Under the pieces are notes generated by a model. That model did not search any database and was not told where the DNA came from. It saw only the letters and a program-made list of their open reading frames with translations. The position numbers and the translations under genes are program-made. Below, one piece after another: positions 3,362-33,799 of a stretch of DNA of 64,000 nucleotides; the stretch's first letter is position 1; every line of letters starts with the position of its first letter. The stretch is from Melastoma dodecandrum (taxonomy: Eukaryota; Streptophyta; Magnoliopsida; Myrtales; Melastomataceae): contig JARUPY010000211.1 in assembly GCA_029817715.1 (NCBI GenBank), positions 360,185 through 424,184 of the forward strand. Direction: 5' to 3'.

Positions 3362-3369
3362 CTTGCAAT

Positions 3370-4057: not shown

Positions 4058-4227
4058 CACCCACCCACCCGTCCATCCATCAAATAATAATATATCAGAA
4101 ATCATTTCCCACTTTCCAAATCAACCTTACCATTAGCTTAGTTTCATTTTTTTTTTTTCTTAGTTTATAGCAACGTTTGACCCTGTAAGAGACGTCCTTG
4201 GGGGTTGAGATACTCAAAGGTGGCGCT

Positions 4228-12085: not shown

Positions 12086-12335
12086 TGAAAGTATTGATAC
12101 GCATATACTATAAGTATACACCTACCTACCTCAACTATAGTCTATATATTTTTTTTGGTAATGTAACTAGAAAAAAATACGCCCTTCCTTCACCTCCCCC
12201 AACACGTTTATTGTTCTTCATGACAATCATTCTTGCAAATGTAATCAGAAGAAGGAAAAGATGATGAAGCACCTAGAATTTTTGTACAGTTTTTTAAATT
12301 TTAAAGTATAGGAAGAGCACAAGTATTGAGAGATG
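12086..12335 (+). other. RBOHF 3' untranslated and flanking region
   Basis: These 250 bp lie between the RBOHF stop and the 5' LTR of the Tat retrotransposon. The sequence is AT-rich. I see no clear AATAAA signal, so it is possible that the transcript ends inside the LTR. Confidence 0.5.
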
Positions 12336-13319
12336 TGTTGACATGGCAATTAATTTTGGGCCTGGATTTAGAATAGAAACCCAGTAATCCCTCAAGTCAT
12401 ACTCCGAGTCGGCCCAAGGCGTAGTCGTCTAGGCCAACTTACGACGAAGTCGACTAGGTCGATTTATGACGAAGTCGACTAGGTCGACTTATAAACGGGG
12501 TCGATTAGGTCGACTCACAATGAAGGAATATAGTGAACAAAGCCAATCAAGATGACTCAACAGTAGCTAGGTCTGCTAGTGGGGTCAAGTCGACGGAATC
12601 CTGGATAAGTCGACCAAGTCAATCATAGTCCGTACAGATCAGTCAAGTCGATGAGGTTGAAATAAATTTATTCATTTTCAATCACGTTTGTTAAAGATCG
12701 TAACTGATCTCAAATATCCAGGAACGTGATCCCACATATCAAGGGGGTTGTTGAGACACTCCCACGACATTAGGGATCACGACTGATAACACGATCTGCA
12801 AAACGATCTATCTGTTACGCGTTAATCGCGTACAAATCCTCTATAAATAGCAGAAGGATTTTTCAAGACAGGACACGACCACACACAGCCAAAACACTGA
12901 AGTTTGTTCGTCAACCTTAGGAAATTAGACACCTCGACCCGGTTCATCGGTCAACTCCCTTTCCACCAGCAGAGTGAGCTCGTAGGGCCTTTGCCGTCAA
13001 CCCCCGCCAGCGACACCACCGACGGAGTGAGCTCGTAGGGCCTTCGTCACAACTCTCCGCCAGCGACCACCACCGACGGAGCGAGCTTCCAAGGCCTTCG
13101 TCACGTGTTCTCCGCCGCTACAAGATCCTACATCGTCACCATCGTGTCCCTTTTTCCCTTCTAATGGCTGTAAGCCCTTTTCTTTTAATGTTCTGAAGAT
13201 TGTAAGACTTGCATTATTTTTTGTATAAAGTTAGTGCATCTTCTTACTGGCGACCACAATACTACTACTGTGAGTCCTTTGCCAAATATTTCCGACGTGT
13301 TCCATTATGTGCGCGAACA
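12336..13319 (+). repeat. 5' LTR of the Tat element
   Basis: It begins TGTTGACATGG and ends GCGCGAACA. A block of degenerate repeats containing GTCGACTAGGTCGACTTA lies at about 12420-12540. A TATAAATAG box at about 12843 would drive genomic RNA. The copy at 24257-25241 matches along the whole length. Confidence 0.92.
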
Positions 13320-13325
13320 CGTTTT

Positions 13326-13343
13326 TGGCGACCACAGTGGGAG
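13326..13343 (+). other. Primer-binding site of the Tat element
   Basis: TGGCGACCACAGTGGGAG starts 7 bp after the 5' LTR. TGG complements the CCA end of a tRNA. I cannot name the tRNA with confidence. Confidence 0.55.
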
Positions 13344-13346
13344 GAC

Positions 13347-15602
13347 ATGCCGAGAAATACTCGAAGTACTACTCAGAATCCCTTAGATGGGGAAAACCAG
13401 GAACTTCCTCCGGGAATGAACTTGGAAACGCCAGCCTTAGGAGACCAGGCAGCTACGAACCAGTCCGCTTTTGATTCACATGCCCAAGTGCCAGCCCTAG
13501 GAGGCCAAGCAGCTACAAACCAGTCCGCTTTTGATTCACATGCCCCGTCCGAATTTATTTCGAGACTGGAGTTCCACAAGGAATTGGGGAGTGTGCGTCA
13601 GGATTTGACCGATATGAAGGGCATCCTAATGGATGTCCAAACTCTAATAGGGCGTCTTTCTGGCCCGAGAGACGAGGAAAGAGTAAGGTCTCGTATGAGA
13701 GAGGCCCCATTTAGGGAGTCTACGTTCATGGCAGACGCTCGTCGGACTACTCAAGGGCCACGTAACGTGACTTTTGAGCGATCCGACATAAGGACAAATA
13801 CTCTATTCGAACCTGGGAATTTGGTTCCCCCTAGTCGACCCTCTTCTTCACGTAATCAACCAACGAATACGTATTGGAATGAGGCAGAGGACTTTCAAGA
13901 GGAAACGGATCTAGGGGAGGATTTTATTCCGTCTCATCGCCCTGGAAAAGAACCTGTAATCGACGCGACTGGAGACCCCTATGGGCTTGGATCCCGAGGT
14001 GGAAACTTTCGGGAAGAGCCTTCTTTCTACACGAGGAATCCAGCGAGTCAGACAGTGGGGGAAAGATCTCCGTACAGCCCGATAAGGTCGACTCGACCTA
14101 CAGCGCAGGCCCCAGTAGGCGGTGTACCCCCAGATTTGAGGGAGGCAATAACTCAGGTTATAGAGCAAGTCGTCCCCGGAATAGCTCGGCGAGACGACGC
14201 CTGTTTGTACAGGTCTCCCTATCCTACGTATGTCGACAGGGATTTCCCTTTACCTAGAGGTTATAAGGTGCCCGACTTTACTCGTTTTTCGGGTGAAGAT
14301 GAAATGACCCCACTCGAGCATGTCGCTCGCTTCACTCACCAACTTGGTGAGGCGGCTGGGAACGACTTTTGGAAACTGAAGCTCTTCCCTAACTCGTTAA
14401 CAGGGGATGCCTTTACGTGGTATGCGAGTTTGCCGCCAGGGTCAATAGCCTCGTGGACTCAGATGCAATCTATGTTCGTTAAGACCTTTGCTCGACTGGA
14501 CACCCCCATGTCGATGTTTGAGGTAATGCGCCTTAAGCAGGCTAACGGAGAACACCCAGGGCAGTTTCTAATGAAACTCAGGAAGGCCCTACTACGGTGT
14601 AGCCCCCCCATACCGGAGAAGGATCAATTACTTCTCGCATTAAATGCGTTGACTATTCCGTTCCGGAAAAAGCTGCAGGGCGAGCGCTTTGCTGACCTGT
14701 ATGACTTAGCAAGGAGGGCCGCAGAGTATTATCAGCTCCTTACAGAGGAAGCCCAGCTGACTCGAGCCTACCAAGTCGACACTTATGAAGTCGACATGGC
14801 AGAATTTGTCAAGGGGGAGTCGACTATATGCGACCCCCTGGCTAAGAAGAATTCCAAAGCTAAGGCATCCCAAAAGAATGCCGAAGAAAGAAAGTATTCT
14901 TTCGACACAGATAAAGTCGACGCTATATTCGACTGGCTTCATCAAAGGAAAAGGATTAGGCTTAAGCCCGGCCATCGAGTTCCCCAGACAGAGAGGGAAA
15001 AGAATAGGAATTACTGCAAGTGGCATGGGTCTTTCACCCATGCTACCAAGGACTGTTTGTCCTTTAGAAATATCATACAGGATTTAATAGAGTCTAAAGA
15101 GCTCCGTTTTCCCGAAGTTGACGAAGTCGCCGTGGTGGACAATAATCCATTCGGGGATGAAGTCGCTATTCATACGTTTGACATATTTGACGCTGAAGTT
15201 AATCTCTTAGAAGTTATTAACGACTCTGTTGTACCCTCGCAGGACGTACAAGCAACCGGCGAGACTTTGGTGGCTAATGCCCTCATGAAGCGACTAGCTG
15301 AGCGTGGGGTCTTCATTCTGCCCAAAGGAAGGGAGAAGTGGCTATGCCACTGGCACTTGAACGACACTCACACTACGGATCGGTGCCACACGTTCAAGAA
15401 GTATCTACTGGACAGCAAAACGGAGGAGTGGTACGACTTGACCCCGTTCGAAGAAGCAGCAATGTCGCTCAATACTCCCCAAGGATCTTCTCACGCCTTC
15501 AGAAGCCCTCCTAGCGCAGATCGCCGATTAGCCTCGCGAGGTGGAAGAGGAGGCCCCCAGGGTCACAAGGGCAATGGAGAGGCAGTCGCCCGGGGAACAT
15601 AA
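13347..15602 (+). CDS. Gag polyprotein of the Tat element
   Basis: Gag forms the particle and binds genomic RNA. The first ATG after the PBS (MPRNTRSTTQN) gives 751 aa. A retrotransposon gag domain is centred at about residues 335-430 (GDAFTWYASLPPGSIASW and following). Two zinc-binding-like motifs of the form C-x2-H-x4-H-x4-C lie near residues 556 (CKWHGSFTHATKDC) and 666 (CHWHLNDTHTTDRC). Two imperfect copies of an Ala/Gln-rich unit sit near residues 30-70. The TAA at 15600-15602 is not a natural end: the same frame stays open for about 900 bp more. It could be a nonsense mutation or a readthrough point. Confidence 0.85.
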   Translation: MPRNTRSTTQNPLDGENQELPPGMNLETPALGDQAATNQSAFDSHAQVPALGGQAATNQSAFDSHAPSEFISRLEFHKELGSVRQDLTDMKGILMDVQTLIGRLSGPRDEERVRSRMREAPFRESTFMADARRTTQGPRNVTFERSDIRTNTLFEPGNLVPPSRPSSSRNQPTNTYWNEAEDFQEETDLGEDFIPSHRPGKEPVIDATGDPYGLGSRGGNFREEPSFYTRNPASQTVGERSPYSPIRSTRPTAQAPVGGVPPDLREAITQVIEQVVPGIARRDDACLYRSPYPTYVDRDFPLPRGYKVPDFTRFSGEDEMTPLEHVARFTHQLGEAAGNDFWKLKLFPNSLTGDAFTWYASLPPGSIASWTQMQSMFVKTFARLDTPMSMFEVMRLKQANGEHPGQFLMKLRKALLRCSPPIPEKDQLLLALNALTIPFRKKLQGERFADLYDLARRAAEYYQLLTEEAQLTRAYQVDTYEVDMAEFVKGESTICDPLAKKNSKAKASQKNAEERKYSFDTDKVDAIFDWLHQRKRIRLKPGHRVPQTEREKNRNYCKWHGSFTHATKDCLSFRNIIQDLIESKELRFPEVDEVAVVDNNPFGDEVAIHTFDIFDAEVNLLEVINDSVVPSQDVQATGETLVANALMKRLAERGVFILPKGREKWLCHWHLNDTHTTDRCHTFKKYLLDSKTEEWYDLTPFEEAAMSLNTPQGSSHAFRSPPSADRRLASRGGRGGPQGHKGNGEAVARGT

Positions 15603-16520
15603 CGCCCGGCACGGCGACTGGAGTTCATAGACTCGTCTGGCCAAAGGGTCATCAAACAGGGGTACACTAGAACTACCCCTGTCAAGGAGATCAAGCCGGT
15701 AGCGGAACATAAGGGAGAGGACCAACCTCAGCAGGCCATGAATCGCAGACCCCGTTATGCGTCGCAGACAGTCGATCCTCAGGAACTACGGAGGGGGCCA
15801 CCCATCCCCCAATTCCTGGACGAAAAGCTGCTGTGCCAAAAGTGCAAGCTGATCGCTCACAACCGCGTACTCATTACCCGGCTCTGCACAGCATGCTGCG
15901 TTAGCTACTTCTTGCGGCTCGTCGACTTATCCGCAAAAGGGGAGATGCTCGTGAAGGCAGCCCGTCCTGAGGGCTCAGGTAACTCGAACCTTAACAAGCC
16001 CTCGAATAGGCCAGCAGATAACCCTGTGCAGGTAGGATATGACCCAGCCGACGGAAGGTTTGTGGAGGTGAGTCGACTTCCCTTTGGTTCTAAGAAACCG
16101 AGATTTGTCAAAGCGCTTAACCCTTCGTCTCAATGGCAGAAGGCGGAAAGAAAGATTACGCTTCTCGTGAGGGCTCAAAAGAGAAAAGAAAGGCGTCTAA
16201 GTCACGCCCAGAAAAAGCCAAGAATGACCCCTGTGATGCCATCCTTTGGCGGGAACCACGCCACAGGGAAACAAGTCGCAGAGCCCGAGCGGGTCGAGTC
16301 TACTGATTACTCGGAAGACCCAGGCTCGAGTTTCGACTACACTCCTCTACGAGGAGATAAGCCCTGCGACTTCGATGCAGAGCAACGACCCCTCGTGGGC
16401 TGTAACGTTCTTACCCTCCCTGCGGAGATGCCTGCAAGAACAAGTCGGAGGCACCAGAAGGTAAAACTCTCGACTCTAAAGTCACTACATTTCCTTCTGG
16501 CTTCCCTCTGCACTGGTTGA
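15603..16520 (+). CDS. Continuation of gag-pol after an in-frame stop, up to the protease
   Basis: This frame is the same as gag and is open from the codon after TAA 15600 to a stop at 16518-16520. It holds a cysteine-rich stretch around 15830-15910 (CQKCKLIAHN, then CTACC) and a basic linker. The last part is out of register: from about 16440 the frame that matches gypsy proteins (leading to FPLHWLRKPS) is another one. A small indel has therefore split the polyprotein. The segment's function is not known to me; it links gag to protease. Confidence 0.55.
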   Translation, partial: RPARRLEFIDSSGQRVIKQGYTRTTPVKEIKPVAEHKGEDQPQQAMNRRPRYASQTVDPQELRRGPPIPQFLDEKLLCQKCKLIAHNRVLITRLCTACCVSYFLRLVDLSAKGEMLVKAARPEGSGNSNLNKPSNRPADNPVQVGYDPADGRFVEVSRLPFGSKKPRFVKALNPSSQWQKAERKITLLVRAQKRKERRLSHAQKKPRMTPVMPSFGGNHATGKQVAEPERVESTDYSEDPGSSFDYTPLRGDKPCDFDAEQRPLVGCNVLTLPAEMPARTSRRHQKVKLSTLKSLHFLLASLCTG

Positions 16521-17311
16521 GGAAACCATCAGATCGTATGAAACAGCATATGCATTCGATGTATATCTCAGCCACCTTTGATGGTGTCTTAGTGGGTCGA
16601 GTCTTAATAGACAATGGCGCCACTGTCAATGTTCTTCCCCTCGCCAAGTTTAGATTACTTGGGTACAAGCCTAGCGAGTTGGTGCGAACCGACGTAGCTG
16701 TAAGTGGCTTCAATGGGAGAAAATCCGAGTGCCTGGGTATTTGCTCCGTGCGCCTAGGCGTCGGGAGACACGAGCAGGAAACTGCTTTCTTTGTAATCGA
16801 TATAGCCCCTTCATTTAATGCGCTTTTAGGACGCGATTGGCTTCATAAGGCCGCCGCGATTCCATCTACTTTGCATAGGGAATTAATCCTATGGCTTGAC
16901 TCCGAAATAGAAATCGTTAAGGCTGATGAATACTCCTGTTGTGACAAGGGTATTTTGCATGCAGAGACGTGTAAGACAGTCAAGGACCTTACTCTGGACC
17001 AGCGCTACAAGCTGGGAGACCCCACAGTCGGACCCTTAGGTGAACCTTCAGGGAAGTTCGACTTCATCGTGAGCTATGGCACCTCTCACCCCAAGCCTGA
17101 CGAAGGACCGATTGTGCCAACAGGATGGGGGCCCGACTTCACAGACAAAGACATAGACGAGGTCCTGCAGGAGGTAGTCACGACTAAAGATGGAGGCGAA
17201 ACGAACAACAGCCCAAGCGACAATCAGGGAGAAGCGCCTAAGAGCCAAGAGAGCACTGCGACGGAGTTGGAGCCCGATAGACTCCTACATGAAGGGATGT
17301 ATGGACAGTGA
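16451..17311 (+). CDS. Aspartic protease region of Tat pol
   Basis: This frame encodes a retropepsin-like domain. The active-site motif is DNGATVNVLP near 16610, the flap region follows, and the late motif is ALLGRDWLH near 16826. It would cut Gag-Pol into mature proteins. It enters by a frameshift near 16440 from the upstream frame and leaves by another somewhere between 17190 and 17311, where the RT frame takes over. In an intact element all of this would be one polyprotein. The frame ends at a TGA at 17309-17311. Confidence 0.7.
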   Translation, partial: APEGKTLDSKVTTFPSGFPLHWLRKPSDRMKQHMHSMYISATFDGVLVGRVLIDNGATVNVLPLAKFRLLGYKPSELVRTDVAVSGFNGRKSECLGICSVRLGVGRHEQETAFFVIDIAPSFNALLGRDWLHKAAAIPSTLHRELILWLDSEIEIVKADEYSCCDKGILHAETCKTVKDLTLDQRYKLGDPTVGPLGEPSGKFDFIVSYGTSHPKPDEGPIVPTGWGPDFTDKDIDEVLQEVVTTKDGGETNNSPSDNQGEAPKSQESTATELEPDRLLHEGMYGQ

Positions 17312-19424
17312 GGAGAAAGGTCATGCAGTCGCTGATATCCTACAGCGACTTCAGAAGCATGTTAGGATGACTAGGAAAGTAGGATGCCAGATAGGCAACA
17401 TCGATTTCGAAATTAGGCCATGTAATAACGTGGACACCGATTTAGGTGGTGTCCAGAGTCGTGAGTCACTGATGATGCCATGTGACTCACTCGTAGGCGT
17501 CAATTTAGGCGAGGCATCGAGCCCTCGAATTGTTTTTATCAGTTCCTCGATGAATAAAGAACTTTTCCATTCTATCAAAGCTACTCTAGAAGAGTTTAAA
17601 GATTGTTTCGCTTGGGATTACACTGAGATGCCTGGCCTAGATCGCCGACTTGTGGAACACAAGTTACCAATCAAAACAGGATTTAAACCAGTCCAACAGG
17701 CGCCGAGGAGAATGACTCATGAAGTCACTCAAGCAGTATTCGAGGAAGTCAAAAAGCTCTTTAAAGCCGGATATATAAGGACATCGAGGTACACCGAATG
17801 GATATCCAGTATAGTTCCTGTCATTAAAAAGAATGGTAAGATTAGGGTTTGCATCGACTTTAGAGACTTGAATCGTGCCACTCCAAAAGATGAGTACCCT
17901 ATGCCCATCGCAGACGATTTAGTCGACAAGACTGCAGGGCACCAAATTATGTCCTTCATGGATGGTTTCTCAGGATATAACCAAATCTTCCTAGCCGAGG
18001 AGGATATCCATAAAACTGCGTTCAGATGTCCCTTAGGCATTTTCGAATGGGTAGTCATGCCATTCGGACTCAAAAACGCTGGGGCAACCTACCAACGGGC
18101 CATGAACGCTATATTTGATGCCTTAATTAGCAAAACGGTCGAAGTATACATAGACGATATAGTAGTCAAGTCACGAGATGAGAAGTCACATGTTAATGAC
18201 CTTAGAAATGCTTTCATTCAAATGAGAAAGCATCAGCTCAAACTAAACCCTCTCAAATGTGCCTTCGGAGTCAGAGCAGGACATTTCCTAGGGTTCCTAG
18301 TGCATCGACGTGGTATAGAAGTCGACCAGAACAAAGTGAACGCCATTCAAAGATTGAACCCTCCGAGTAATAAGAAGCAGTTACAGGCTTTCTTAAGAAG
18401 GGTCAATTATCTAAGGCGATTTATTGGTAACGTCGCTGGACGGACAGAAGTTTTCTCGACCTTGCTAAAGGAAAAGGGAAATTTTGTGTGGAGCGACAAA
18501 CACCAAAAAGCATTTGAAGGCTTAAAGGAGTACTTAATGAAACCGCCTGTGCTTGCCTCTCCTCGGATAGGAAAACCTTATCTGCTTTACGTGGCAGCGA
18601 CTGAAACAGTCATCGGTGCCATGTTAGCCCAAGAGACAGAGGACAAAACTGAGAGAGCAGTCTACTATTTGTCAAGACAACTAACTGCTACAGAAAAGCG
18701 CTATACAATTAAGGAGAAGTTATGCCTGTCAATCTTTTATGCTGTTAAGAAGCTGAGACATTATATCGGATCCCAAGAGGTTCATGTTATTGCCAAGTCC
18801 CCAGTCATAAAATACTTTTTCGAAAGTCCCCTATTGACCGGAAGAATTAGTAAATGGAGCTTGGTCCTATCCGCATACGATCTGCGTTTCAAACCTCAAC
18901 AGTCGGTGAAAGGGCAGGCCTTAGCCGATTTCTTAGTGAACCACGACCCATCTACATCAATCGATCAAGAGGAATTCCTTGAGGATGTCTGGCAAGCTTG
19001 GTTTGATGGATCTTCGGCGAAATCCGGCGTAGGCATAGGCCTCCACGTACTTTCGCCACTAGGAAAGGACGTTCGCCTAGCATATCGTCTGTCGGCAACT
19101 CATACAAACAATGCGACTGAGTACGAAGCGTTGATCACGCTCTTGAAGGAGTTATTAGCCTTGGGAGCCAGGAAAGCTAGAGTAATGGGAGACTCTCAAC
19201 TGGTTATTAACCAGATGAACGGCGACTCTCTATGTCAAGAGAAACTCGCACCCTATCATCAAGTCGCTCGAAGGCTAGTCGAGCGGTTCGAAGTAATTAC
19301 TTTCCTTTTTGTAGGCCGGGAGGAAAACACAATCGCTAACGACCTAGCCCAAAAGGCTTCAGGATACAAGGCCAAAAGGGGAAGCGATTGTATCCCAGAA
19401 ATAGCTTCCCACTTAGCTCCCTAA
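17190..19424 (+). CDS. Reverse transcriptase, RNase H and second (archaeal-like) RNase H of Tat pol
   Basis: This part copies the element's RNA into DNA and degrades the RNA strand. The RT core spans about 17750-18330, with FMDGFSGYNQI and the catalytic YIDDIVVKS at about 18144. The connecting RNase H segment follows at about 18500-18780 (AVYYLSRQLTATEKRY). A second RNase H runs from about 19005 (WFDGSSAKSG) through TEYEAL and GDSQLVINQ to NTIANDLAQKA near 19350, keeping its acidic residues. Dual RNase H is diagnostic of Tat elements. A TAA at 19422 cuts this part off from the integrase in the same frame. The true start is upstream by fusion to protease. Confidence 0.85.
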   Translation: MEAKRTTAQATIREKRLRAKRALRRSWSPIDSYMKGCMDSEEKGHAVADILQRLQKHVRMTRKVGCQIGNIDFEIRPCNNVDTDLGGVQSRESLMMPCDSLVGVNLGEASSPRIVFISSSMNKELFHSIKATLEEFKDCFAWDYTEMPGLDRRLVEHKLPIKTGFKPVQQAPRRMTHEVTQAVFEEVKKLFKAGYIRTSRYTEWISSIVPVIKKNGKIRVCIDFRDLNRATPKDEYPMPIADDLVDKTAGHQIMSFMDGFSGYNQIFLAEEDIHKTAFRCPLGIFEWVVMPFGLKNAGATYQRAMNAIFDALISKTVEVYIDDIVVKSRDEKSHVNDLRNAFIQMRKHQLKLNPLKCAFGVRAGHFLGFLVHRRGIEVDQNKVNAIQRLNPPSNKKQLQAFLRRVNYLRRFIGNVAGRTEVFSTLLKEKGNFVWSDKHQKAFEGLKEYLMKPPVLASPRIGKPYLLYVAATETVIGAMLAQETEDKTERAVYYLSRQLTATEKRYTIKEKLCLSIFYAVKKLRHYIGSQEVHVIAKSPVIKYFFESPLLTGRISKWSLVLSAYDLRFKPQQSVKGQALADFLVNHDPSTSIDQEEFLEDVWQAWFDGSSAKSGVGIGLHVLSPLGKDVRLAYRLSATHTNNATEYEALITLLKELLALGARKARVMGDSQLVINQMNGDSLCQEKLAPYHQVARRLVERFEVITFLFVGREENTIANDLAQKASGYKAKRGSDCIPEIASHLAP

Positions 19425-20759
19425 GGCGACGCGTTCACTCTGAATATAATGACAAGCGATAAAGATTGGAGGAGACCAATCACCGACTTCCTCTCCGACC
19501 CAACACAAAAGGCGAGCCAAAGAATCAAGACTCAGGCTTTGTCGTACACTCTTATAGATGGGGTACTTTACAGAAAGACCAAAGAAGGAGTCCTACTAAG
19601 ATGCGTCGACTTAGACGAAGCGACCCCAATTATGTTGGAGACTCACCAGGGTTTATGCGGGTCTCACCAATCTGGCACCAAAATGTCTTGGACTATCCAA
19701 AGACATGGTTTTTACTGGCCATCAATGCTAAAGAATTGCATAGAAATGGCTAGGGGGTGCCAAGAGTGTCAAAAACATGGTCCGGTGACAAGGGCCCCAG
19801 CGTCCGATTTAGTCTCAGTCATCAAGCCTTGGCCGTTTAGGTCTTGGGCTTTAGATATAATCGGGGAGATTCACCCACACTCGAGTAAAGGCGATGCCTA
19901 CATTCTAGTCGCTACTGACTACTTTACCAAGTGGGTCGAGGCTCAAGTATACCAGAAAATTGATCACAAGGAGGTGATCGATTTTCTCAGATCCTCCATC
20001 ATTTATAGATTTGGGATTCCCCAGAATATCGTAGTAGATAATGGCACCGTTTTCAATAATGAGAAGATGCGTGAATTCGCTGCTGAATTTAGCTTTTCAA
20101 TCACTAATTCGACACCCTATTACCCCCAGTCGAATGGACAAGCTGAAGCTACTAATAAGCTCATAAAGAATAACATTCAGAAAATGGTTGGTGCAAATCC
20201 AAGAAAATGGCACGAACTATTACAGGACACCTTGTGGGCTCTAAGAGTCACCAAGAGAGACAGCACAGGAGAAACCCCTTTTTCGCTGGTATATGGGCAA
20301 GATGTTGTCCTACCTATTGAGATTCGATACAAGTCGTTCAGGGTAGCTCATTCTGACTTGCAAGACGAGGCAATGTACCTCGCCTTAGAAGAATTGGAGA
20401 AGAAGCGACTCGACGTAATAGACCGACTCGAGGTACATAAGCAAAGAATTGCTAGATACTATAATAAAAAGGTTGTCCATAAGCGCTTCAAAGTGGGCGA
20501 CTTGGTATGGAAGATGATCCTACCCCTTAAATCAAAAGACCAAGTCTTGGGTAAGTGGTCTCCTAATTGGGAGGGTCCATATGAAGTGTGCGAGACATAC
20601 TCATCTAATACGTATCGACTTACGACCAGAGAAGGAGGTAGGCATCCATTGAAGGTCAATGGTAAATATCTTAAAACCTACCGCGCGACTATCTGGGAAG
20701 CTCATCATAAAATCCTAAGACAAAGGACTCCATTAATTTGGGAAGCGCTTAATTCCTAA
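19425..20759 (+). CDS. Integrase of Tat pol
   Basis: Integrase inserts the cDNA into chromosomal DNA. The frame is that of the RT part and is open directly after TAA 19422; the first ATG is at 19449. A His/Cys zinc-binding region occupies about 19640-19790. The catalytic core has Asp in ALDIIGE (about 19850), Asp in VVDNGT (about 20034) and Glu in GQAEATN (about 20138). A GPY-type motif, NWEGPYEV, is near 20568. No chromodomain follows. It ends 133 bp before the stop of the antisense gene, so the two genes converge. Confidence 0.85.
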   Translation, partial: GDAFTLNIMTSDKDWRRPITDFLSDPTQKASQRIKTQALSYTLIDGVLYRKTKEGVLLRCVDLDEATPIMLETHQGLCGSHQSGTKMSWTIQRHGFYWPSMLKNCIEMARGCQECQKHGPVTRAPASDLVSVIKPWPFRSWALDIIGEIHPHSSKGDAYILVATDYFTKWVEAQVYQKIDHKEVIDFLRSSIIYRFGIPQNIVVDNGTVFNNEKMREFAAEFSFSITNSTPYYPQSNGQAEATNKLIKNNIQKMVGANPRKWHELLQDTLWALRVTKRDSTGETPFSLVYGQDVVLPIEIRYKSFRVAHSDLQDEAMYLALEELEKKRLDVIDRLEVHKQRIARYYNKKVVHKRFKVGDLVWKMILPLKSKDQVLGKWSPNWEGPYEVCETYSSNTYRLTTREGGRHPLKVNGKYLKTYRATIWEAHHKILRQRTPLIWEALNS

Positions 20760-20892: not shown

Positions 20893-23800
20893 CTACAAGT
20901 CTAGCCTCCATAACCCGCCAACTTCTCTGAAATCGAGGACAAGGGATTTACGAGCTCGTCGCTTCGCGTTCACCTTGTTTCGCTGGGCATAAAGGTCGAC
21001 GACCTTTTCTCTATCCTTCTCAGCGTTGGCCTCCAGCTCCTCGATTTCTTGAGTATTGATCGACGCAAGCTGCCGAGTCAGGTCATTCTTGAGGTTCGTG
21101 TAGAACTCTATCTGTCTCTCTGCCTCGGTCAGTTTCTCTTGCACATCGATCAAACGTTGGCGAGCGTCCTGTGCAGCTTTAGAGGCCTGCCCTCGAGCAT
21201 CATTGATCGACCGAATCTTCGAGTCGGTCAAGTCGTAGGCGAGCAGGTCGGCGTAGTAATCCTTCCAGCGAGTCCAATACGTCGACCTGAAGCTCTTGCA
21301 GGCCCCCAGTATTTCGTCCGTAACCCGAGGGGATGCCTCGATCTCCTTCAACAGCTTCTGCATCTTCTCAAACTCGTCGACGCTTAAGGGGTCAATGAGC
21401 AGAAGTCGGCAGAATTCGTCAATGTCCTGATGAAGCTTCACCCATGGGTCGACAGTCGAGGTCGCTGCAGCAGGAGCCTGCAGAATAAGAAATGAAATGT
21501 TGCTAAGACACAATGTCCCAAACAGTCAACACCTCCATGCAATCAAATACTTACCTCTGAAGGTAGTAAATCCTCAGAACTTTCGCCCGAAGAAGTGGAG
21601 GGAGTAGGAGCCTTCTTGCGACCAGCAGTCGTCTTCACTCTCTTCGGGCGAGCCTGTGAAGTGTCACGGTTAGAATCGTGATAACAACGCCATACTTTGT
21701 GTGAAAGAAGAACACATACCATTGGTGGTGCAGGAGTGGGGGCTGAAGAAGAAGGGACGCCTTGTTCTTCCTCCTCTCGCATCGGCTGAGGTAGTGCCCC
21801 CTCCCGCGTCGACCGAGTTGAAGGATCGACTGAAACCATAGCGGTCCCTTCTTGTAGCAAGGCTTCAGGAGCCTGCTCTTCCTAGAGTGGAGTGTAATAA
21901 AACTAAAGTTCATATATGAACTAGGGTAATATATCCTAGCAGGGAGTCGAGCTCACCTCGGCGGTCGAAGCCGTTGCACCCGTCTCGAACGCAACCGGAG
22001 TAGGCTGGTCACCACCTCCGGTTGACGCTTCGCCCTAGGCAATATAGTGCGGGTTAGATACAGAAGCTCAGGATGAATTATAACCAGTAGAGTCATACCT
22101 CTGTAGCCGCTCCTCGAGCGACATCGACCGTCGCTAAGGTCGTAGGTACAATAGCAGATGATGAGCTCACTGGGGCCACCGCTGTTGGCGACCTCGAAGA
22201 AGAAGTCGCCGCTACGGTAGTCGGCGACTTGGGAAGAGGAGCCGCCACTGAAGCTGGTACCTTCACCAATCTCCTCCTCTGGGATAGAGACATCTCCTCA
22301 AGATCTCCTTTCTCGGCCGCCTTGCGCTTTGGAGCAGCCTTAGGTCGAGCCTTAGCAGGGTCACCTGCGGCTGTTTCCCTGGAGCTCGCCACCTTAGCTT
22401 TCCCCTTGCCAGTCGACTTGAGTCTAGAAGGAGCGGGGGCAAGGGGAGCCTTAGGCTTTCCAGAGCCCTGAGGCATCATTGATCCTGAAAAGGAGAAAGC
22501 TCACGATTAATACTAAGAACCTAATACTCTTAAAGTAAAGCTAAGTCTTTACCTCTCGCTTTGATATGTGCGTCGCCCATGTAAAAATCAGGTTCCTTGG
22601 AGACCTCCAAGAAATGCATCAAAGCCCGCAGCTCTTCATAAGTAGTCGACCACAGCACAGTGAAGAATTGCGTGGCGAAACAGGCAGAAGTACCAGATGG
22701 GAATTCTATCTGGGAGAGCTGCGCCTTGCTGTTGAGCAAGTCGAGGGTCTTCGGGGAGATCGGCTTGCACGAAATTCTCTTCATCCTATCCCCGCACAAG
22801 CCACCGGTAGGGTCAGCAAGTGGAACCGCTACGCCCTGGATGAACCCAAACTGCCTTGCACACAGCTGAGGGTTATAGGCTTCAAAGGTCAGGTAGCCGT
22901 CGAAGATGACTGGTAGGTCCCTGCGGGTCAATACCCCATTCCAGAAGCCGCGAGCAGCTTGGAGCTTAATTTCCTGAGCAAATGTCTTGCCGCCTGGAAA
23001 GGGTGCCCAGTTGCGTCGATCTGCCCTGCCGAAGTCGACGATGTGCTTCATGTGGCCAGTGACCGATGTCATAAGCCATTGATCCTTCCGCTGGCAGCAC
23101 TGCTCCAAGATGGTCTCCCCATAATAGGCCGACTCGAGGGGCGAAGCAGGGCCCTTGAACCCAGTCAATCCTGGCATCCACATAGCTGACCAAAGGTGAA
23201 CTAACCAGAGCAATCCTCCTGCTGGATGTTTTGGAAACGGCTTGATCTGAGTCGTCGCTCTGTCCAGATCATGGTAAAGAAGACCCAAAATGAAGGGGGC
23301 CCAAGAGATTTCTTCATTGGTCTCCCTCAGAAAGTTGGCCACTGGATAAGAAGTGTGGCTGACCTTCTTCCCTGGGAAGCAATAGACAAACTTGCTTAAC
23401 CAAGTGCTGAGGAACTCGACCTCTTCCCGGGCGCCAAAGCACTCGGTCGACAACTTCTCATCTGGCTCTTTGCCTGCTGAGGCCATTTTTAATTTCCTGC
23501 TTACCACCTCCATGTACTGAAGGGCGCCCTTGGGATTAATATCGCCTGCCAGGGAGTATTGGCGAACAGGGAGGCTATTGACTTTGCACCTGGCCAAAAT
23601 CTTCACATCTGCCAAGGTAATAGACATGGGACCCTCCGGGAAATAGAAGCAATTGACTGAGGAATTTCAGAAAGGCAGCATAGCCGAGCAGACTCTAGGA
23701 TCACAGTTCTTGTCTGCCACGGACATCCTAAAGAACCTCAGAATCTTCTGACTCCTAAACTTCTCTGTGAAGTGCTCCTCCCACATCTCGAGCCATTCCA

Positions 23801-24059
23801 CCATCTCAGATTTAGACGAAGAAGGAAAACACAGGAAGGATCCCTGACCTTCCCAGTTGAGGGGATCGACGAAGTTGGGATGGCAGATCGGGATGGGCTT
23901 CTCGGTGACGAGATAGATGAGCGGCACTGTCCCCGGGAAGAGATGCTCCGGCAGGATAGGTCCGAGGGTGACGCCCGATCCCTGATCCTCTGTGACCGGA
24001 ATGGGTCCGGTTGGCCCCGCACGCTGATTATGGACCTCGAAAGCCTGGAAAGTCGACAT
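20893..24059 (-). CDS. Antisense six-exon passenger gene: plant-mobile-domain-like protein with C-terminal coiled coil
   Basis: Exons on the minus strand: 24059-22553, 22484-22099, 22034-21957, 21881-21720, 21653-21555, 21477-20893. Every intron is GT-AG with good consensus (AGAG|GTAAAG, CAGAG|GTATGA, GAG|GTGAGC, TCAGAG|GTAAGT; acceptors TTTTCAG, CCTAG, TCTAG, CACAG, CTGCAG). The phases match, giving 939 codons. Residues of about 60-330 resemble the plant mobile domain (WLSKFVYCFPGKK, then GLLYHDLDR, then GGLLWLVHLW). Residues 503-630 are basic and Ala/Pro/Ser-rich with an NLS-like patch (PKRKAAEK). Residues 836-904 look like a coiled coil. One in-frame TGA (23669-23667, codon 131) interrupts exon 1; the same frame continues on both sides. 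Its role is unknown. Extra ORFs, some with a domain shared with DNA transposons, are known in Tat elements. Confidence 0.8.
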
Positions 24060-24194
24060 CTTTTTAAGGATCGGAAGAGTGTTAAAGAGGAAGACGAAGA
24101 GTTTTCCGGGAAGCGAGGGTTTTCTAGTTTCTTGGAGAAGATGAAGAAGTGTTGAGCAAGGAAGAAAAGTGCGGGAAAAGGACGATGACTCTCC

Positions 24195-24202
24195 TTTATA
24201 TA
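24195..24202 (-). promoter_or_regulatory. TATA box of the antisense passenger gene
   Basis: Read on the minus strand this is TATATAAA, followed by GGAGAG. It lies about 136 bp before the ATG at 24059 and outside the LTR, so the passenger gene seems to have its own promoter in the space between its ATG and the 3' LTR. Confidence 0.6.
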
Positions 24203-24243
24203 GGGTATGATTTTTGCTGAGTCGGCATAGCCAACTCAGCATA

Positions 24244-24253
24244 AAAGGGGGGC
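24244..24253 (+). other. Polypurine tract of the Tat element
   Basis: AAAAGGGGGGC lies just before the 3' LTR, separated from TGTTGA by a few bases. It would prime plus-strand synthesis. Confidence 0.6.
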
Positions 24254-24256
24254 TTA

Positions 24257-25241
24257 TGTTGACATGGCAATTAATTTTGGGCCTGGGTTTAGAACAGAAA
24301 CCCAGTAATCCCTCAAGTCATACTCCGAGTCGGCCCAAGGCGTAGTCGTCTAGGCCGACTCACGACGAAGTCGATTAGGTCGATTTATGACGAAGTCCAC
24401 TAGGTCGACTTATGAACAGTGTCGACTAGGTCGACTCACAACGAAGGAATATAGTGATCAAAGCCAGTCAAGATGACTCAACAGTAGCTAGGTCTGCTAG
24501 TAGGGTCAAGTCGACGGAATCCTGGATAAGTCGACCAAGTCAATCAAAGTCCGTACGGATCAGTCAAGTCGATGAGGTTGAAATAAATTTATTCATTTTC
24601 AATCACGTTTGTTAAAGATCGTAACTGATCTCAAATATCCAGGAACGTGATCCCACATATCAAGGGGGTTGTTGAGACACTCCCACGACATTAGGGATCA
24701 CGACCGATAACACGATCTGCAAAACGATCTATCTGTTACGCGTTAATCGCGTACAAATCCTCTATAAATAGCAGAAGGATTTTTCAAGACAGGACACGAC
24801 CACACACAGCCAAAACACTGAAGTTTGTTCGTCAACCTTAGGAAATTAGACACCTCGACCCGGTTCATCGGTCAACTCCCTTTCCACCAGCAGAGTGAGC
24901 TCGTAGGGCCTTTGCCGTCAACCCCCGCCAGCGACACCACCGACGGAGTGAGCTCGTAGGGCCTTCGTCACAACTCTCCGCCAGCGACCACCACCGACGG
25001 AGCGAGCTTCCAAGGCCTTCGTCACGCGTTCTCCGCCGCTACAAGATCCTACGTCGTCACCATCGTGTCCTTTTTTTCCCTTTTAATGGCTGTAAGCCCT
25101 TTTCTTTTAATGTTCTGAAGATTGTAAGACTTGCATTATTTTTTGTATAAAGTTAGTGCATCTTCTTACTGGCGACCACAATACTACTACTGTGAGTCCT
25201 TTGCCAAATATTTCCGACGTGTTCCATTCTGTGCGCGAACA
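24257..25241 (+). repeat. 3' LTR of the Tat element
   Basis: This copy matches 12336-13319 with about two dozen substitutions and one extra T in a T-run near 25070. It begins TGTTGACATGG and ends GCGCGAACA. The following bases ACTTG do not repeat the AGATG that precedes the 5' LTR. Confidence 0.92.
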
Positions 25242-25432
25242 ACTTGTCATGGCATTAATAACACCAAGGTATATGCGGGTGTTATGCGGATTTTCTTGTT
25301 TCCCCTCTCTCTAATGGGTTCGGCTATAAACCGAAGACGCAGCCACTTAGTTCCGTTTAAGAAAGTTTGTACCTAAAGCTTGTTCCATTCAAGAAAGTTC
25401 GCTTATTCGCTTCTTTTCGAGAAAAGTTAGTG
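25242..25432. other. Short spacer after the Tat element
   Basis: No gene is seen. The first bases (TTGTCATGGCATTAAT) loosely resemble the LTR start TTGACATGGCAATTAAT, which may be chance. Confidence 0.3.
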
Positions 25433-25925
25433 AAATTTTTGGAGTTTTGTTCCTTAATGACGTCATTTGACAAAATATTTCGCCAAATGACGTCTTAAGT
25501 TTCAATATTCCTCTAATGACCCACCAAAGTCGACCTTTGTAAGGCCGACTTCCGTCCTCAAGGTGTAAGGCCGACTTCTCTATACTTAGTAAAAAAAAAA
25601 AAATTCAATGGTCATTCACACGAGGGAAGTCGGCCTTTGTAAGGCCGACTTCCTTCACTTAGGCATTTTTTTTTAATTCGAAGGTAAAAAAATATATATA
25701 ATAAGGCCGACTTCCCTCACTTAGGTATTTTTTTTAATTCGAAGGCAAAAAAAAATTCACACGAGGAAGTCGGCCTTATACAAAGGCGACTTCCTTGTGA
25801 ACCGAAGTCAGCCTTTGTAAGGCCGATTTAGATGGGTTAGTTCGCGAATTATTTTCCATAATGTGTTATTTGACGAAATATTTCGCCAAATGATGTCATT
25901 CAGGAACAAAATTCGAAATTTTTTA
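25433..25925. mobile_element. Foldback/MITE-like element with about 60-bp terminal inverted repeats
   Basis: The outer segments 25433-25497 and about 25864-25925 are inverted copies (GTTTTGTTCCTTAATGACGT against the inverse of ACATCATTCAGGAACAAAAT). Each contains its own near-perfect palindrome around AAATATTT. The interior holds several hairpins built from AAGTCGGCCTT/AAGGCCGACTT, for example 25625-25653 with a 13-bp perfect stem and TGT loop. There is no coding capacity. The exact ends and target duplication are unclear. Confidence 0.6.
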
Positions 25926-29246: not shown

Positions 29247-29777
29247 TAGGACGGGCTCTCGAGGGGACTATGTCAATTCAGCCTTGTAGTGTACTCGTTT
29301 GACGTTGCACCCACCTAAGTATGTCAAGTCTTTTCTGTCTTTCCCTAGGAGCAAAATGATTGCAACAAAAAAATGCACCCAACCCAGCAAGATAGTGACA
29401 AACACGAGTATTATTGTTCCCAATAATATAAGGAACAACGAATACACTCGTGTATACAACTAGCCCTCACACTCCTTCCCCTTCCTCACCCAAGTCTTTC
29501 AATATTTAAAGGGGCTAAGGGGAGTCACATAAAATTACAACGACTTCGACAATTAGACACCAATCGGGCACGAGGGATCAAAAGTGTTTATGGTCAAGAA
29601 CTCCAAGGGTTGCCTACGGCCATGTCACGGGGCATACCTGATCCTGCGACAGCCATCGAAAGGGGTCGGATGAAACTGCGTCAGAACTCTTCCATCGGCA
29701 CTTGTCACAAGAAAGCTTAAAGGAATCTATGCTGCTTCTTGTGGCATGCCATCATCGTAGCCTCTTCAGCTTGTAAG
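29247..29777 (-). repeat. 5' LTR of the old gypsy element, first part
   Basis: This segment aligns with 26945-27480. It is broken off at 29777, where an Athila element inserted, and resumes at 37753. Confidence 0.7.
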
Positions 29778-30964
29778 TGATAACTCTATGAAAGTAGAGT
29801 TATTTATGTCAATTTCATACCTATGATTTGTTAGATTTGTAAAATACTACGCTTATTGCATATTATTTCTTGTTATTTTACATTATTCTCGAGAATTTGG
29901 ATACTGCCGAATTTTGGATTTATTTTAGATAAAAAATATAAACAAGAAGATTTCGCCATATCTAGCAAGATTTTGGCAAAGGAAAAGAGTTGAAGGACAC
30001 GTGGGAGGAGGACTAATTGAAGAAAAAAATATTTTATCTAGATTTTCAGAGATTCTTTAGGTTTTATTTTTAGGACAATAAAAGGACTTTGTTCCCTAAG
30101 GCTAGAGAAGAGGATTCAACTAGGAGAGGATTCGACTAAGAGAGGATTCAACTAGAAGGGGATTCGACGAAGAGAGGACTTCGACGAGGGAGAAGAAGGG
30201 AGTTAGCTTATTGTTTAGGATGATTTTCTTTTATTGGAATTGTGTCTCGAAAACAATGTCCGGCTAAACTTTCTTTGCTAGGATTATGTTGAACCGAATT
30301 GCGTAGTTGAATTTCCTGAAATCGTTTTAGAACAAATTATACTTTGGATGTCTATTTATTTCGTTTGATCTTAATGCATGCAATTTGTTTGATCACCGAA
30401 TTATATTGATTTGTTATCCTAATTTAAACTCGGGAGAGGAATTTTAGGAGAGAACGGGAACGAAGTAGCCTTGGTTAATATCGCGGGAGCGAATTGACTA
30501 GTAAGTAGTATCGGGAGATATACTTCTAGGTAACCGATAAATGATTGAATCTTAATGTGTTTTGGCCTTCATAATTCACTATAGGGATATAGGTTTATGG
30601 TGGTTTAGAATAATCCTTTGTAAACTCAGGAGAGGCACTTAGGGACCTAAGAATCCGGTTAGTAAATAGAATTAGTATGAATTTGGGATAAACGAGTGAA
30701 GGGGTTTAACGAAACAAGGAGGGGATACTTGATCCTAGGCTTTTCCGTCTATTGAATTCTGATTCTTTGTTTCGATATTTATTTCTTACTAGCTTAATTT
30801 TCAGATTTAAAAACTCAATTTTTCGTATTTGCTTGGCTACATAAAAATTGCAATTGTGTATGCTAAAGGATTTTAATTGCTATCCTCGTGGGAACGATAA
30901 CTCTACTCATTTCTATATTACTTGTTGCGATCCGTATACTTGCGGTGTGCGAATTCAGCGATAA
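29778..30964 (+). repeat. 5' LTR of the Athila element
   Basis: It starts TGATAACTCTATG and ends GCGATAA; the expected CA end has become AA. A block of GAGGATTCGAC(T/A)A repeats lies at about 30112-30190. Confidence 0.88.
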
Positions 30965-30970
30965 AGTTTT

Positions 30971-30988
30971 TGGCGCCGTTGCCAGGGA
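30971..30988 (+). other. Primer-binding site of the Athila element
   Basis: TGGCGCCGTTGCCAGGGA is the tRNA-Asp-type site typical of Athila elements. It lies 6 bp after the LTR. Confidence 0.8.
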
Positions 30989-31077
30989 TAGATTTTAGAA
31001 TATTTTACTTGCAACGAAAGCAATTTGTGTTGACCAAGTAGTTTAATTTTTTTTTTCTTTCTCTCGTTTTCAGGTGT

Positions 31078-32699
31078 ATGCGCCGCTCGTACAGTGAAGA
31101 TTTATTTACATTCGATCCTAAGATTGAGAGGACATTTCGAGCACTCAGAAGGAGTCAAGGGAGCACGATGGCAGACAGAAATCAGAACAATGGAAATAAC
31201 AATGAGATTCAAGAAGTTAATCCACCAGTTCCGAGAAGGACGATGCGAGACTTCGCTCAACCTACACCACATGAGCCCACTAGATTTCTTCGTCCAGCAA
31301 TTCAGGCTCAGAATTTTGAGATCAAGCCGTCCATACTCCATATGATTGAGAACTCAAGTTTTGGAGGCTTGACAAATGAAGACCCTCACTGGCACCTCAC
31401 TCGCTTCGAGGATTTATGCGACACATTTAGATGCAATGGAGTGTCAGCCGAGGCAGTCCGAATGAGATTGTTTCTGTTTTCGTTACGGGACAAGGCTCGA
31501 TCATGGCTTTATTCCTTGCCGGAAGAGGCAGTCCGATCATGGGAGGATCTTTCGAAGCTATTCTTTGCCAAATACTTCCCACCGAGCCGAACCGTAAGGA
31601 TCAGGAACGAGATCACAACCTTCCGTCAACATTCAACTGAATCCATGTATGAAGCTTGGGAGCGTTTCAAAGAATTATTACGTCTATGCCCACACTATGA
31701 GATCCCGAAGTGGATGCTCATGCAAAGCTTCTACGATGGTTTGGCAGATCAGCTTCAATCCACAGTAGATTCTGCAGCAGGAGGAACTTTGATGAACAAG
31801 ACACCTGAGGAATCTTTGGAGTTGTTCGAACAAATCGCCAACAACGGTCAGCAGAAAACATCAACAAGAGGAGTCGCCGGGCTGCATCAAATGGATACAG
31901 TGACATCTATAAACGCTCAGCTTGAGAAGCTCACCAAGGAAGTTGCTGCTCTCCGAACTCCAAAACCGATAGCATGTATTATGATGTGCAGGCAGACGAG
32001 GACCAGGTAGAAGCGCCAGAAGTAAATTATATAGGCTCCAATCCACGGAACAACCCGTTTTCCAATACCTACAATCCTGGATGGAGAAATCACCCAAACT
32101 TCTCATGGAGAAACAATGCAGGGCCACAAGAACCAAGTCAACCGAGGATGAATCAGCTTCCTGGTTTTATGACCACAAAGCAGCCACATGCAGGTGAGAA
32201 TAGGCCTAATGTTGATGAATTACTAACCCGGTTGCTTGCCAGTCAGGAGGAAACCCGGAAACAACAAGAGGATGTTCAAAAGCGTCAAGAGATGATCCTG
32301 AAGGACCATGCTATGTCCATTAAACAATTGGAAGTGCAAATAGGGCAAATTGCCAGTTCTATCACCAGCAGACCATATGGAACTCTACCAAGTAACACCG
32401 AGGTAAATCCTAAAAGAGAGCATTGCAACGCAGTCACCCTTCGCAATGGTCGTGATTTTGAAGAAGCCTTCGAGAAGATGGAGGTGGAGAAGGAACAAGC
32501 TAGAGAGAAACGCCACAAACAGAAAACAAGTGAAGGAGGAGGCGAGACAAATGATAAGGAGTCGACAGATGTCACAACTACAAAGGTACACACCTCAAAA
32601 CCACCATTTGTACCAAAAATTCCTTTTCCGCAAAGGCTTAAAAAATCTACTGACGAGCATCGATTCAAAAAGTTTCTAGATGTCTTTAAGCAATTGTAG
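31078..32699 (+). pseudogene. Gag of the Athila element, frameshifted
   Basis: The first ATG after the PBS opens 310 codons to 32010. The gag domain is at about residues 130-240 (LRDKARSWLYSLPEEAVRSW and on to LMQSFYDGL). Near 31965-31990 the coding frame shifts and continues in another frame to a TAG at 32697-32699, through the Asn-rich segment NPRNNPFSNTYNPGWRNHP and a Glu/Lys-rich coiled-coil-like stretch. The frame after the TAG continues into the protease region, so that stop is probably a point mutation. Confidence 0.8.
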
Positions 32700-33475
32700 A
32701 TTAATATTCCATTTGCGGAAGCTTTAGAGCAAATGCCCAAATATGCCAAATTCATGAAGGAGGTGTTGTCAAGGAAGAGAAGAATCGGTGAGCATGAAAT
32801 AATTGCACTTACTGAGGGGTGCAGTGCCATTTTGAAAAAGAAGCTACCACCGAAATTAAAGGACCCAGGTAAGTTCACAATCCCCTGTAGCATTGGAACT
32901 AAATTTTCATGTTTTGCCCTCTGTGATTAGGTGCAAGCATCAATTTGATGCCATTTTCCATCTTTGAGAAGTTGAACATCGGGGAGGTAAAACCGACATC
33001 TTTAACTTTGCAATTAGCTGATCGGTCTTACACTTATCCAAAGGACGTAATTGAAAACGTGCCGGTAAAGGTCGATAAATTTATTTTCCCAGCCGACTTT
33101 GTCATTTTAGATTATGAAGAAGATCGAGAAATTCCAATCACATTGGGAAGACCTTTCTTAGCCACAGGACGAACTTTGATTGACGTACAAAAGGGCGAAC
33201 TTACCATGCGTGTCCATGATCAAGATGTAACTTTTAACATATGTAATGCCATGAGTAATCCTAACGAGATTGATGAATACAGCTTCGTGGACGTGAATGA
33301 TGAAATCTTGTATAGAGAATTGTTTGAAAAATACGTGGGTGCATTAATCGAAGAGTGGCCACAAGAGGATGAACCAGAAGGTGTTATAACGAAGAGTGAA
33401 GAAGCTGAGACAGAGCAGGCTGCGTATATGCGTCATGTGCCACGGGCTGAACCGTTGGAACGCCAATCTCTGTAG
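32700..33475 (+). pseudogene. Protease region of Athila pol, frameshifted at the active site
   Basis: The frame from 32700 encodes the usual Athila pre-protease segment (FAEALEQMPKYAKFMKEV, then LKKKLPPKLKDPGKFTIPC). It stops at 32928-32930 exactly where the aspartic protease active site begins: CD is followed by a one-base loss, and GASINLMPFSIFEKL continues in another frame to 33475. A later motif, ITLGRPFLATGRTLIDV, is intact. The protease would be inactive. Confidence 0.75.
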
Positions 33476-33799
33476 CAAAACCATCAACAAAAGAGCCGCC
33501 AGAGTTAGAACTTGAACCGCTACCGGAGCACCTGAGGTATTCATTTTTAGGTTCAGGTTGTACTCTTCCAGTTATTATTTCGGCTGCATTATCTAACGAA
33601 CAGGAAGAGGAACTATTGCAAGTGCTTCGAGAACACAAAATAGCTCTTGGATGGAGCATTGTAGACATTAAGGGAATTAGTCCACGCTATGCATGCACAA
33701 GATCAGGCTTGAAGACAACAAGAAAGCTTCGATCGAGCAACAGAGAAGGCTCAATCCGAATATGAAAGAGGTGGTAAGAAAAGAAATAATAAAGTGGGA
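33476..33799 (+). pseudogene. Pre-RT segment of Athila pol, ending at a large deletion
   Basis: The translation resembles the Athila region before RT (PVIISAALSNEQEEELL, HKIALGWSIVDIKGISP, RRLNPNMKEVVRKEI), with a frameshift near 33690. At about 33797 the sequence passes straight into the start of integrase (WDEPLLFKKCADQIIRRC). All of RT and RNase H, normally over 1.5 kb, is absent. Confidence 0.7.

Follow-up and report, generated by a model that had tools for sequence, protein, structure and literature searches.

Antisense genes in plant LTR retrotransposons

Several plant retrotransposons carry an additional open reading frame (ORF) between pol and the 3' long terminal repeat (LTR) that is read from the strand opposite gag-pol. 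The examples given in PMC7264820 and PMC11963269 are gene23 of maize Grande, rice RIRE2, and Retand of Silene, and PMC7264820 reports transcription from its own promoter and a nuclear protein for Grande gene23. Here, we describe a gene with a similar position and orientation in a 64,000-nucleotide stretch of the Melastoma dodecandrum genome (contig JARUPY010000211.1, positions 360,185 to 424,184), referred to below as the window. The gene lies on the minus strand at positions 20893 to 24256 of the window, inside a Tat retrotransposon. In the published accounts Retand genes mostly carry TRP28 (PF04195), whereas the gene described here has no TRP28 match and instead contains a plant mobile domain (PMD; PF10536) and five introns.

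The PMD is shared with PMD-bearing Ogre/Gypsy elements. According to Neumann et al. (2019; PMC6317226), 57% of Ogre elements carry PF10536, and the PMD is given as the most frequent atypical domain in a survey of plant LTR elements (Alvarado-Marchena 2022; PMC9289625). Neumann et al. considered individual ORFs with 250 codons or more, and therefore exon 1 of the present gene would be detectable by their rule and the joined six-exon gene would not; the intron passage in that paper concerns the gag-pol intron of Ogre. According to Ikeda et al. (2017; PMC5418596), clades PMD-A1 and PMD-A2 are Gypsy-only, a Gypsy PMD was already in the angiosperm ancestor, and MULEs took their PMDs from hosts; domestication by hosts from Gypsy is favored there, with the order left open, and the authors speculated that MULE-captured PMDs might serve anti-silencing. 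The domain is also common to the antisense gene, PMD-carrying MULEs, and the host PMD proteins MAIN and MAIL1, which act in transposon silencing (PMC7156037, PMC5418596). Function is stated to be unknown both for the antisense genes (PMC11963269, PMC7264820) and for the PMD (PMC5418596, PMC7156037). PMC7264820 and PMC11963269 both lack the word intron, and PMC11963269 also lacks the term plant mobile domain; no description of a multi-intron antisense gene of such elements was found among the passages, titles, and abstract openings searched, the novelty of the introns being provisional. Tat elements with antisense PMD genes have been published before; the intron structure and an accumulation of the palindrome GTCGAC are the parts worth following.

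The Tat element and its antisense gene

The element is bounded by a 5' LTR (12336 to 13319) and a 3' LTR (24257 to 25241), both on the plus strand, which align over 985 columns with 22 mismatches and 1 gap (97.7% identity). The gag-pol region (13206 to 20759, plus strand) has an interrupted frame and consists of five stop-to-stop ORFs, across which the domains Retrotrans_gag, Asp_protease_2, RVT_1, RT_RNaseH, RVT_3, and rve occur in succession; in the Pfam scan, only the ORF at 15603 to 16520 was without a match. The second RNase H (RVT_3) sits between RT_RNaseH and the integrase, with rve on the next ORF. A second RNase H in this place defines plant Tat elements (Ogre/Retand) in Neumann et al. 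(2019; PMC6317226), and the order reverse transcriptase (RT), RNase H (RH), second RH, and integrase agrees with that of Ogre and Retand, the angiosperm Tat lineages, in line with the original proposal that the gene lies in a Tat element. The presence of a PMD favors Ogre over Retand, judged by the survey frequency in the same source. The five bases beside each LTR differ (12331 to 12335 and 25242 to 25246), leaving no matching target-site duplication, a pattern suggestive of decay or of recombination between elements.

The integrase ORF ends at 20759, and the antisense gene lies between that point and the 3' LTR on the strand opposite gag-pol. The coding ends of pol and the antisense gene are 133 bp apart and do not overlap; the antisense transcript could pair with pol RNA only if its 3' untranslated region exceeded 133 nt. 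Six exons join in phase over five GT-AG introns into 939 codons, counting the final stop. Exon 1 (22553 to 24059) supplies the ATG and the PMD. After intron 1 (22485 to 22552; 68 nt, phase 1) follow exon 2 (22099 to 22484), intron 2 (22035 to 22098; 64 nt), exon 3 (21957 to 22034; 78 nt), intron 3 (21882 to 21956; 75 nt), exon 4 (21720 to 21881), intron 4 (21654 to 21719; 66 nt), exon 5 (21555 to 21653), intron 5 (21478 to 21554; 77 nt), and exon 6 (20893 to 21477), which encodes the C-terminus and the stop. In four sequences compared, the introns contained 37.6 to 43.2% T and the exons 22.3 to 23.3%. A TATA box, TATATAAA, stands at 24195 to 24202 on the minus strand, in the internal region of the element and not in the LTR. 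This octamer occurs 9 times in the window versus 2.9 expected, which is weak evidence alone, and we regard it as a TATA box because of its conservation across copies (see below), not because of its rarity.

The original prediction, made from the sequence of the window, had read this locus as a TATA-driven gene of 939 codons. The exons, the introns, and their phases are as it described, but it missed a TGA that interrupts the frame at codon 131 (23667 to 23669). The window copy therefore lacks an open 939-codon frame and is a pseudogene, and with this stop and a broken gag-pol it is dead. The same prediction explained the retention of the introns by their antisense orientation relative to the genomic RNA; this can be deduced from the splice sites, since an antisense GT-AG intron would read CT-AC on the genomic strand.

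Conservation and selection in sister copies and diverged clades

Searching the window's own genome (373 Mb) with 1 kb of exon 1 gave 433 first-look candidates, 40 of which were scored; all of these matched at 99 to 100%, with the window among them. The best-scoring and thus best-preserved copies were chosen, so that the intact fractions that follow are upper-end figures. Over the accessory-gene region the 40 copies formed two subfamilies, A (98 to 99% identical to the window) and B (approximately 95%). Codon 131 was not a stop in 38 copies and was a stop only in the window and one other. The frame was fully open (no internal stop, length divisible by three, and an ATG) in 26 of the 40 copies, all ten splice dinucleotides were kept in 37, and both held in 25; copy L045 had an open frame but had lost the AG of intron 1. 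The TATA box TATATAAA was present in 40/40. One copy with a rearranged 3' part (L021) is included in these counts and was left out of the A/B tests of plus-strand ORFs and of the ratio of nonsynonymous to synonymous divergence (dN/dS). The A/B dN/dS set comprised 25 of the 26 open copies, a copy with a 36-nt deletion (L018) being left out.

More distant relatives were represented by clades C and D. Of the 2560 candidates from a search with P0006, one of the homologues described below, 81 were scored, and most of these fell into groups at 96 to 99% and 77 to 79%. Clade C comprised 12 returned loci, 8 of which were aligned, and clade D comprised three copies, giving an alignment of 17 sequences with 6 A/B, 8 C, and 3 D members; exon 6 of the C copies was cut by the locus end, with 396 to 399 nt of it covered. 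All five introns lay at identical places in A/B, C, and D. Their lengths varied freely (68/78/70, 64/64/66-67, 75/75/79, 66/66/77, and 77/77/75 nt in A/C/D for introns 1 to 5), and the exon length changes were multiples of three in open copies. One C copy had lost one donor, and stops were present in one C copy and in two of the three D copies, the third D copy being open. In clade C, TATATAAG occupied the TATA position in 8/8 copies; the alignment of clade D does not reach that position.

The PMD exon was under purifying selection between clades, with dN/dS values of 0.10 (A-C), 0.15 (A-D), and 0.09 (C-D) and bootstrap upper limits of 0.14 to 0.20, each from one pair of copies. In the same comparisons, the ratio was approximately 0.53 in exons 2 to 5 and 0.21 to 0.31 in exon 6. 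Across 150 A-B pairs of the 25 open copies the PMD exon gave 0.08, and it gave 0.11 within A and 0.31 within B. The pol piece (658 to 709 codons, one copy per clade) had dN/dS values of 0.08 to 0.10, with 0.01 to 0.07 in its RT part. By these estimates, the constraint on the PMD exon is about that on the whole pol piece and weaker than that on RT. Conservation of the frames in sister copies and purifying selection, both of which the original prediction had named as checks, thus support it. The homologues, the splice sites and frame kept in three clades, and the low dN/dS indicate that the gene is real beyond chance and that the family's gene has been retained by selection even though the window copy is dead. 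As read from the sequences, its anatomy and the selection on it are highly probable.

The two halves of the gene differ in history. Between A and C, synonymous divergence (dS) was 1.49 in exon 1, 0.29 in exons 2 to 5, 0.53 in exon 6, and 0.13 in the introns, and that of the pol piece was 0.27 overall, with 0.19 to 0.48 in the RT and RT-RH parts. In sliding windows of A/B versus C the difference fell from approximately 25% to 10% near 22290 to 22190. The opposite pattern was seen between A and B, with 0.5 to 4% difference in the PMD half and 14% just past position 22500. When positions 24300 to 20893 of the window were compared with B, C, and D, the half with the promoter and PMD and the half with the linker and coil had separate histories. 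We infer from these divergences that recombination within the gene exchanged parts between element lineages.

The predicted protein and its homologues

The plant-mobile-domain-like part named in the original prediction proved to be a PF10536 match at residues 120 to 413 (22821 to 23702, minus strand), scoring 76.1 bits (cut-off, 34.9) with an E value of 3.9e-21 when the codon 131 stop was read as X. Five further Pfam matches of the window protein were all under their own cut-offs. TRP28 was absent among the matches up to an E value of 1, and no VANC-type domain was found. Exons 2 to 5 encode a basic, Ala/Pro/Ser-rich linker, and basic clusters can be read in the protein, including ARPKRVK at the start of exon 5, an exon whose 33 residues are all identical in copy L053.

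A protein search returned nine homologues, all hypothetical proteins of Melastoma candidum, and a second search again returned nine, with P0010 as the new one; these are annotations and not transcripts. Relatives are detectable by this search only through exact shared words of five residues, and therefore the restriction of the matches to M. candidum does not show that the gene is absent from other plants. P0006 and P0010 scored 82.8 and 92.2 bits against PF10536. In P0010 (918 amino acids) the PMD is fused to the same C-terminus, and the peptides of exons 1, 2, 4, 5, and 6 match in order; the exon 3 peptide had no clear match within P0010, and loss of this exon would leave the frame intact. 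A structure of P0010 was predicted from a seven-sequence alignment. It has long helices in the C-terminus, where pLDDT is mostly 50 to 77, and pLDDT is below 50 nearly everywhere else. These helices agree with the coiled coil that had been proposed for this end of the protein. When the C-terminus alone was the query, only P0010 itself matched among 2849 candidates.

Accumulation of GTCGAC

Upstream of the gene, the 3' LTR contains a 25-bp tandem array (24344 to 24446) with dyad cores like GTCGACCTAGTCGAC, and a matching array lies in the 5' LTR (12423 to 12515). With up to 3 mismatches, the 15-mer GTCGACCTAGTCGAC occurs four to seven times upstream of the gene in 8/8 A/B loci (the window included) and in 12/12 C loci, versus shuffled means of at most 0.05. 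Over the whole element, the palindrome GTCGAC ranked first of 4096 hexamers, with 33 sites versus 2.8 under a first-order Markov model, and it was also first in gag-pol (12 versus 1.42), the antisense gene (10 versus 0.61), and the 3' LTR (5 versus 0.46). It was not enriched in the two other LTR-type elements of the window (ranks 1457 and 1487) or in positions 37751 to 64000 (rank 524). In sister pieces of A, B, C, and D it ranked first in 9/9, with sites partly shared and partly clade specific.

We considered whether codon or dipeptide use alone could account for this excess. Synonymous codon shuffles of the antisense coding sequence of the window gave a mean of 3.3 sites, and shuffles that also kept the next-base context gave a mean of 4.3; in neither case did any of 2000 shuffles reach the 10 observed. 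Under the stricter shuffle the excess was weaker in other copies, where 3 (L011), 4 (L010), 20 (L049), and 36 (L062) of 2000 shuffles reached the observed count. The gag ORF had 7 sites versus 1.7 expected, and the other pol ORFs had 2 versus 0.9 to 1.8, 2 versus 0.7 to 0.9, and 1 versus 0.5. The motif is thus unevenly spread along the element, being concentrated in the LTRs, gag, and the antisense gene, with no significant excess in the other pol ORFs.

What the gene may do

The closest parallel to this combination is the VANC protein of VANDAL transposons (Hosaka et al., 2017; PMC5735166), which binds a 9-base motif that accumulates in tandem and brings about a loss of DNA methylation. As described there, the likeness comprises an accessory gene, an accumulated short motif that is partly in tandem, and conserved domains with variable regions. 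However, VANDALs are DNA transposons, and the Tat protein had no VANC-type domain match in the Pfam scan, direct comparison with the VANC sequence not being part of the analysis. In addition, VANC binding lies in noncoding parts in that account, whereas GTCGAC here also occurs in coding parts. The Tat antisense gene is thus a possible analogue of the VANC anti-silencing system and not a member of it, and the resemblance in motif accumulation suggests that the protein or a partner may bind GTCGAC.

On the mechanism we propose, a spliced minus-strand mRNA from the internal TATA box would encode the PMD protein, which would enter the nucleus by way of its basic clusters, similar to nuclear localization signals, and would dimerize through the coiled coil. 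It would then act on the chromatin or LTR promoter of the element via GTCGAC, which is clustered approximately 280 to 560 bp upstream of the gene's own ATG, and the element would be regulated or protected from silencing. The parts of this proposal differ in strength. We put at about even the chance that the gene is the element's own antisense, intron-containing accessory gene with an internal TATA box, acting on its own element, and the prospect that the protein is a nuclear regulator of the element seems evenly balanced. Direct binding of GTCGAC by the protein is doubtful. It is rather unlikely, on the analogy drawn, that the PMD protein recognizes GTCGAC, with its 25-bp spacing in the LTR and its scattered sites in gag and the gene itself, and so regulates its own element in a sequence-specific way or counters silencing. 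Such a protein would be an LTR-retrotransposon counterpart of VANDAL/VANC, based on a domain whose relatives in the host, MAIN and MAIL1, silence transposons.

If the protein does read GTCGAC, a PMD carried by a transposon would be tied to the regulation of that transposon, perhaps with an effect contrary to that of the silencing host PMD proteins. GTCGAC is a candidate recognition motif that can be tested directly in vitro. The selected gene is present in many near-identical copies, and with five introns its expression can be tested unambiguously by stranded reads across the splice junctions.

Several observations weigh against this proposal. Splicing and promoter use are deduced from the sequence. 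Only the PMD exceeded its Pfam cut-off in the window protein, and no recognized DNA-binding domain did; the P0010 model is poor, with a mean pLDDT of 35. The linker is weakly constrained (dN/dS of approximately 0.5), and dS in pairs with C is 1.3 to 1.5, near saturation, so that those ratios are rough. A single A-B pair gave 0.23 for the PMD exon (limits of 0.09 to 0.55), 0.45 for exons 2 to 5, and 0.47 for exon 6 (0.22 to 1.24), and the PMD exon gave 0.35 within C and 0.49 within D (one pair each); the raised values between closely similar copies are consistent with a relaxation of selection once a copy has inserted. For the motif, codon and dipeptide use alone yields on average 3.3 of the gene's 10 sites, and under the stricter shuffle the excess is only moderate in gag (31/2000), clade C (20), and clade D (36). 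It is not significant by codon shuffles in the ORFs at 15603 to 16520, 17178 to 19424, and 19425 to 20759, and the pol pieces of A, C, and D have only 2, 1, and 1 sites. A host factor could also read GTCGAC.

This last point leads to the alternative that survives best, which we consider possible though not favored. Here, GTCGAC and the LTR array would be bound by a host transcription factor or would serve at the RNA level (dimerization or packaging), and the PMD protein would work elsewhere, e.g., in nuclear import of the preintegration complex. Tandem repeats in LTRs are often enhancers, and the richness of the gag ORF in the motif also suits such a role. However, the motif is also in excess within the antisense gene and in pieces from every clade, and the arrays adjoin the antisense promoter; these observations argue for a link to the gene instead, although none is decisive.

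A role for the antisense transcript and not the protein, in which the transcript would pair with genomic RNA and feed small interfering RNA silencing or attenuate the element, is improbable. The antisense orientation and the conserved TATA box would suit it, and Vicient and Casacuberta (2020; PMC7264820) raised it for such genes. In contrast, the dN/dS of 0.09 to 0.15 in the PMD exon, the in-frame exon indels, and the conserved splice sites show selection on the protein, and the two roles are not mutually exclusive.

It is very improbable that the gene is a recently captured host gene that rides along without a function in the element. The original prediction had favored capture from the host or from a DNA transposon, and the introns and the PMD genes of plant hosts (PMC5418596) could be read in this way. 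However, three diverged clades share the gene structure, with PMD-exon dS values of 0.5 to 1.5 between them and purifying selection, and the phylogeny in PMC5418596 gives Gypsy PMDs old clades of their own. A recent capture from the host is thus largely refuted by the shared structure and the between-clade selection, in a comparison among Tat copies, and recent capture from the host or a DNA transposon is not supported. Finally, chance ORFs, a gene-model artefact, or plus-strand coding with the minus strand open by accident can be set aside as having next to no probability: four plus-strand stop-to-stop ORFs of 123 to 164 amino acids do overlap the gene and are open in 37, 36, 35, and 17 of 39 A/B copies, with 20914 to 21387 also open in 3/3 D copies (the C copies do not cover it) and 22091 to 22471 in 8/8 C copies, but 22545 to 22916 and 23661 to 24155 are closed in 8/8 C and 3/3 D copies, 22091 to 22471 is closed in 3/3 D copies, and the PF10536 match, the conservation among copies, the clade alignment, and the low dN/dS belong to the minus-strand frame.

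Other loci and neighboring features

PMD-carrying MULE-like loci in the same genome differ from the Tat gene in having the PMD beside transposase-type domains on the same strand, whereas the Tat PMD is encoded by a gene of its own that runs antisense within an LTR element. Six loci (L066 to L071), picked from 139 entries of the PMD search, contain palindromes or dyads of 25 to 33 bp, several of them approximately 41 bp apart. The palindrome GGGGCGGGTTTTCAAAACCCGCCCC occurs in L066, L068, and L071 and AAGTCGGCCTTTGTAAGGCCGACTT in L067 and L069, and L070 has imperfect dyads only; in the three loci scanned, L066 to L068, a MULE transposase domain, a SWIM domain, or both were detected. The palindromes may be candidate binding sites of a transposase or of the PMD, and the loci may represent just two or three families. 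For comparison, nine 7-kb tiles of the window had 0 to 2 such palindromes each; the loci themselves all came from the PMD search. Just outside the 3' LTR, at 25527 to 25830, the window itself contains several whole or partial AAGTCGGCCTTTGTAAGGCCGACTT palindromes with similar AT-rich stretches on both sides, and this segment looks like a nonautonomous relic of an L067-type element.

Both LTRs of the Tat element also contain a 53-bp tandem repeat of 2.2 copies (24893 to 25008 and 12972 to 13087), and a 60-bp tandem repeat of 1.9 copies lies just past the 5' LTR (13430 to 13545). Two more LTR-type repeat pairs are present in the window, at 29777 to 37750 and 2544 to 8926, with gag and integrase domains inside the first. 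A stop-to-stop ORF at 9251 to 10375 carries a ferric reductase transmembrane domain and is probably an exon of a host gene.

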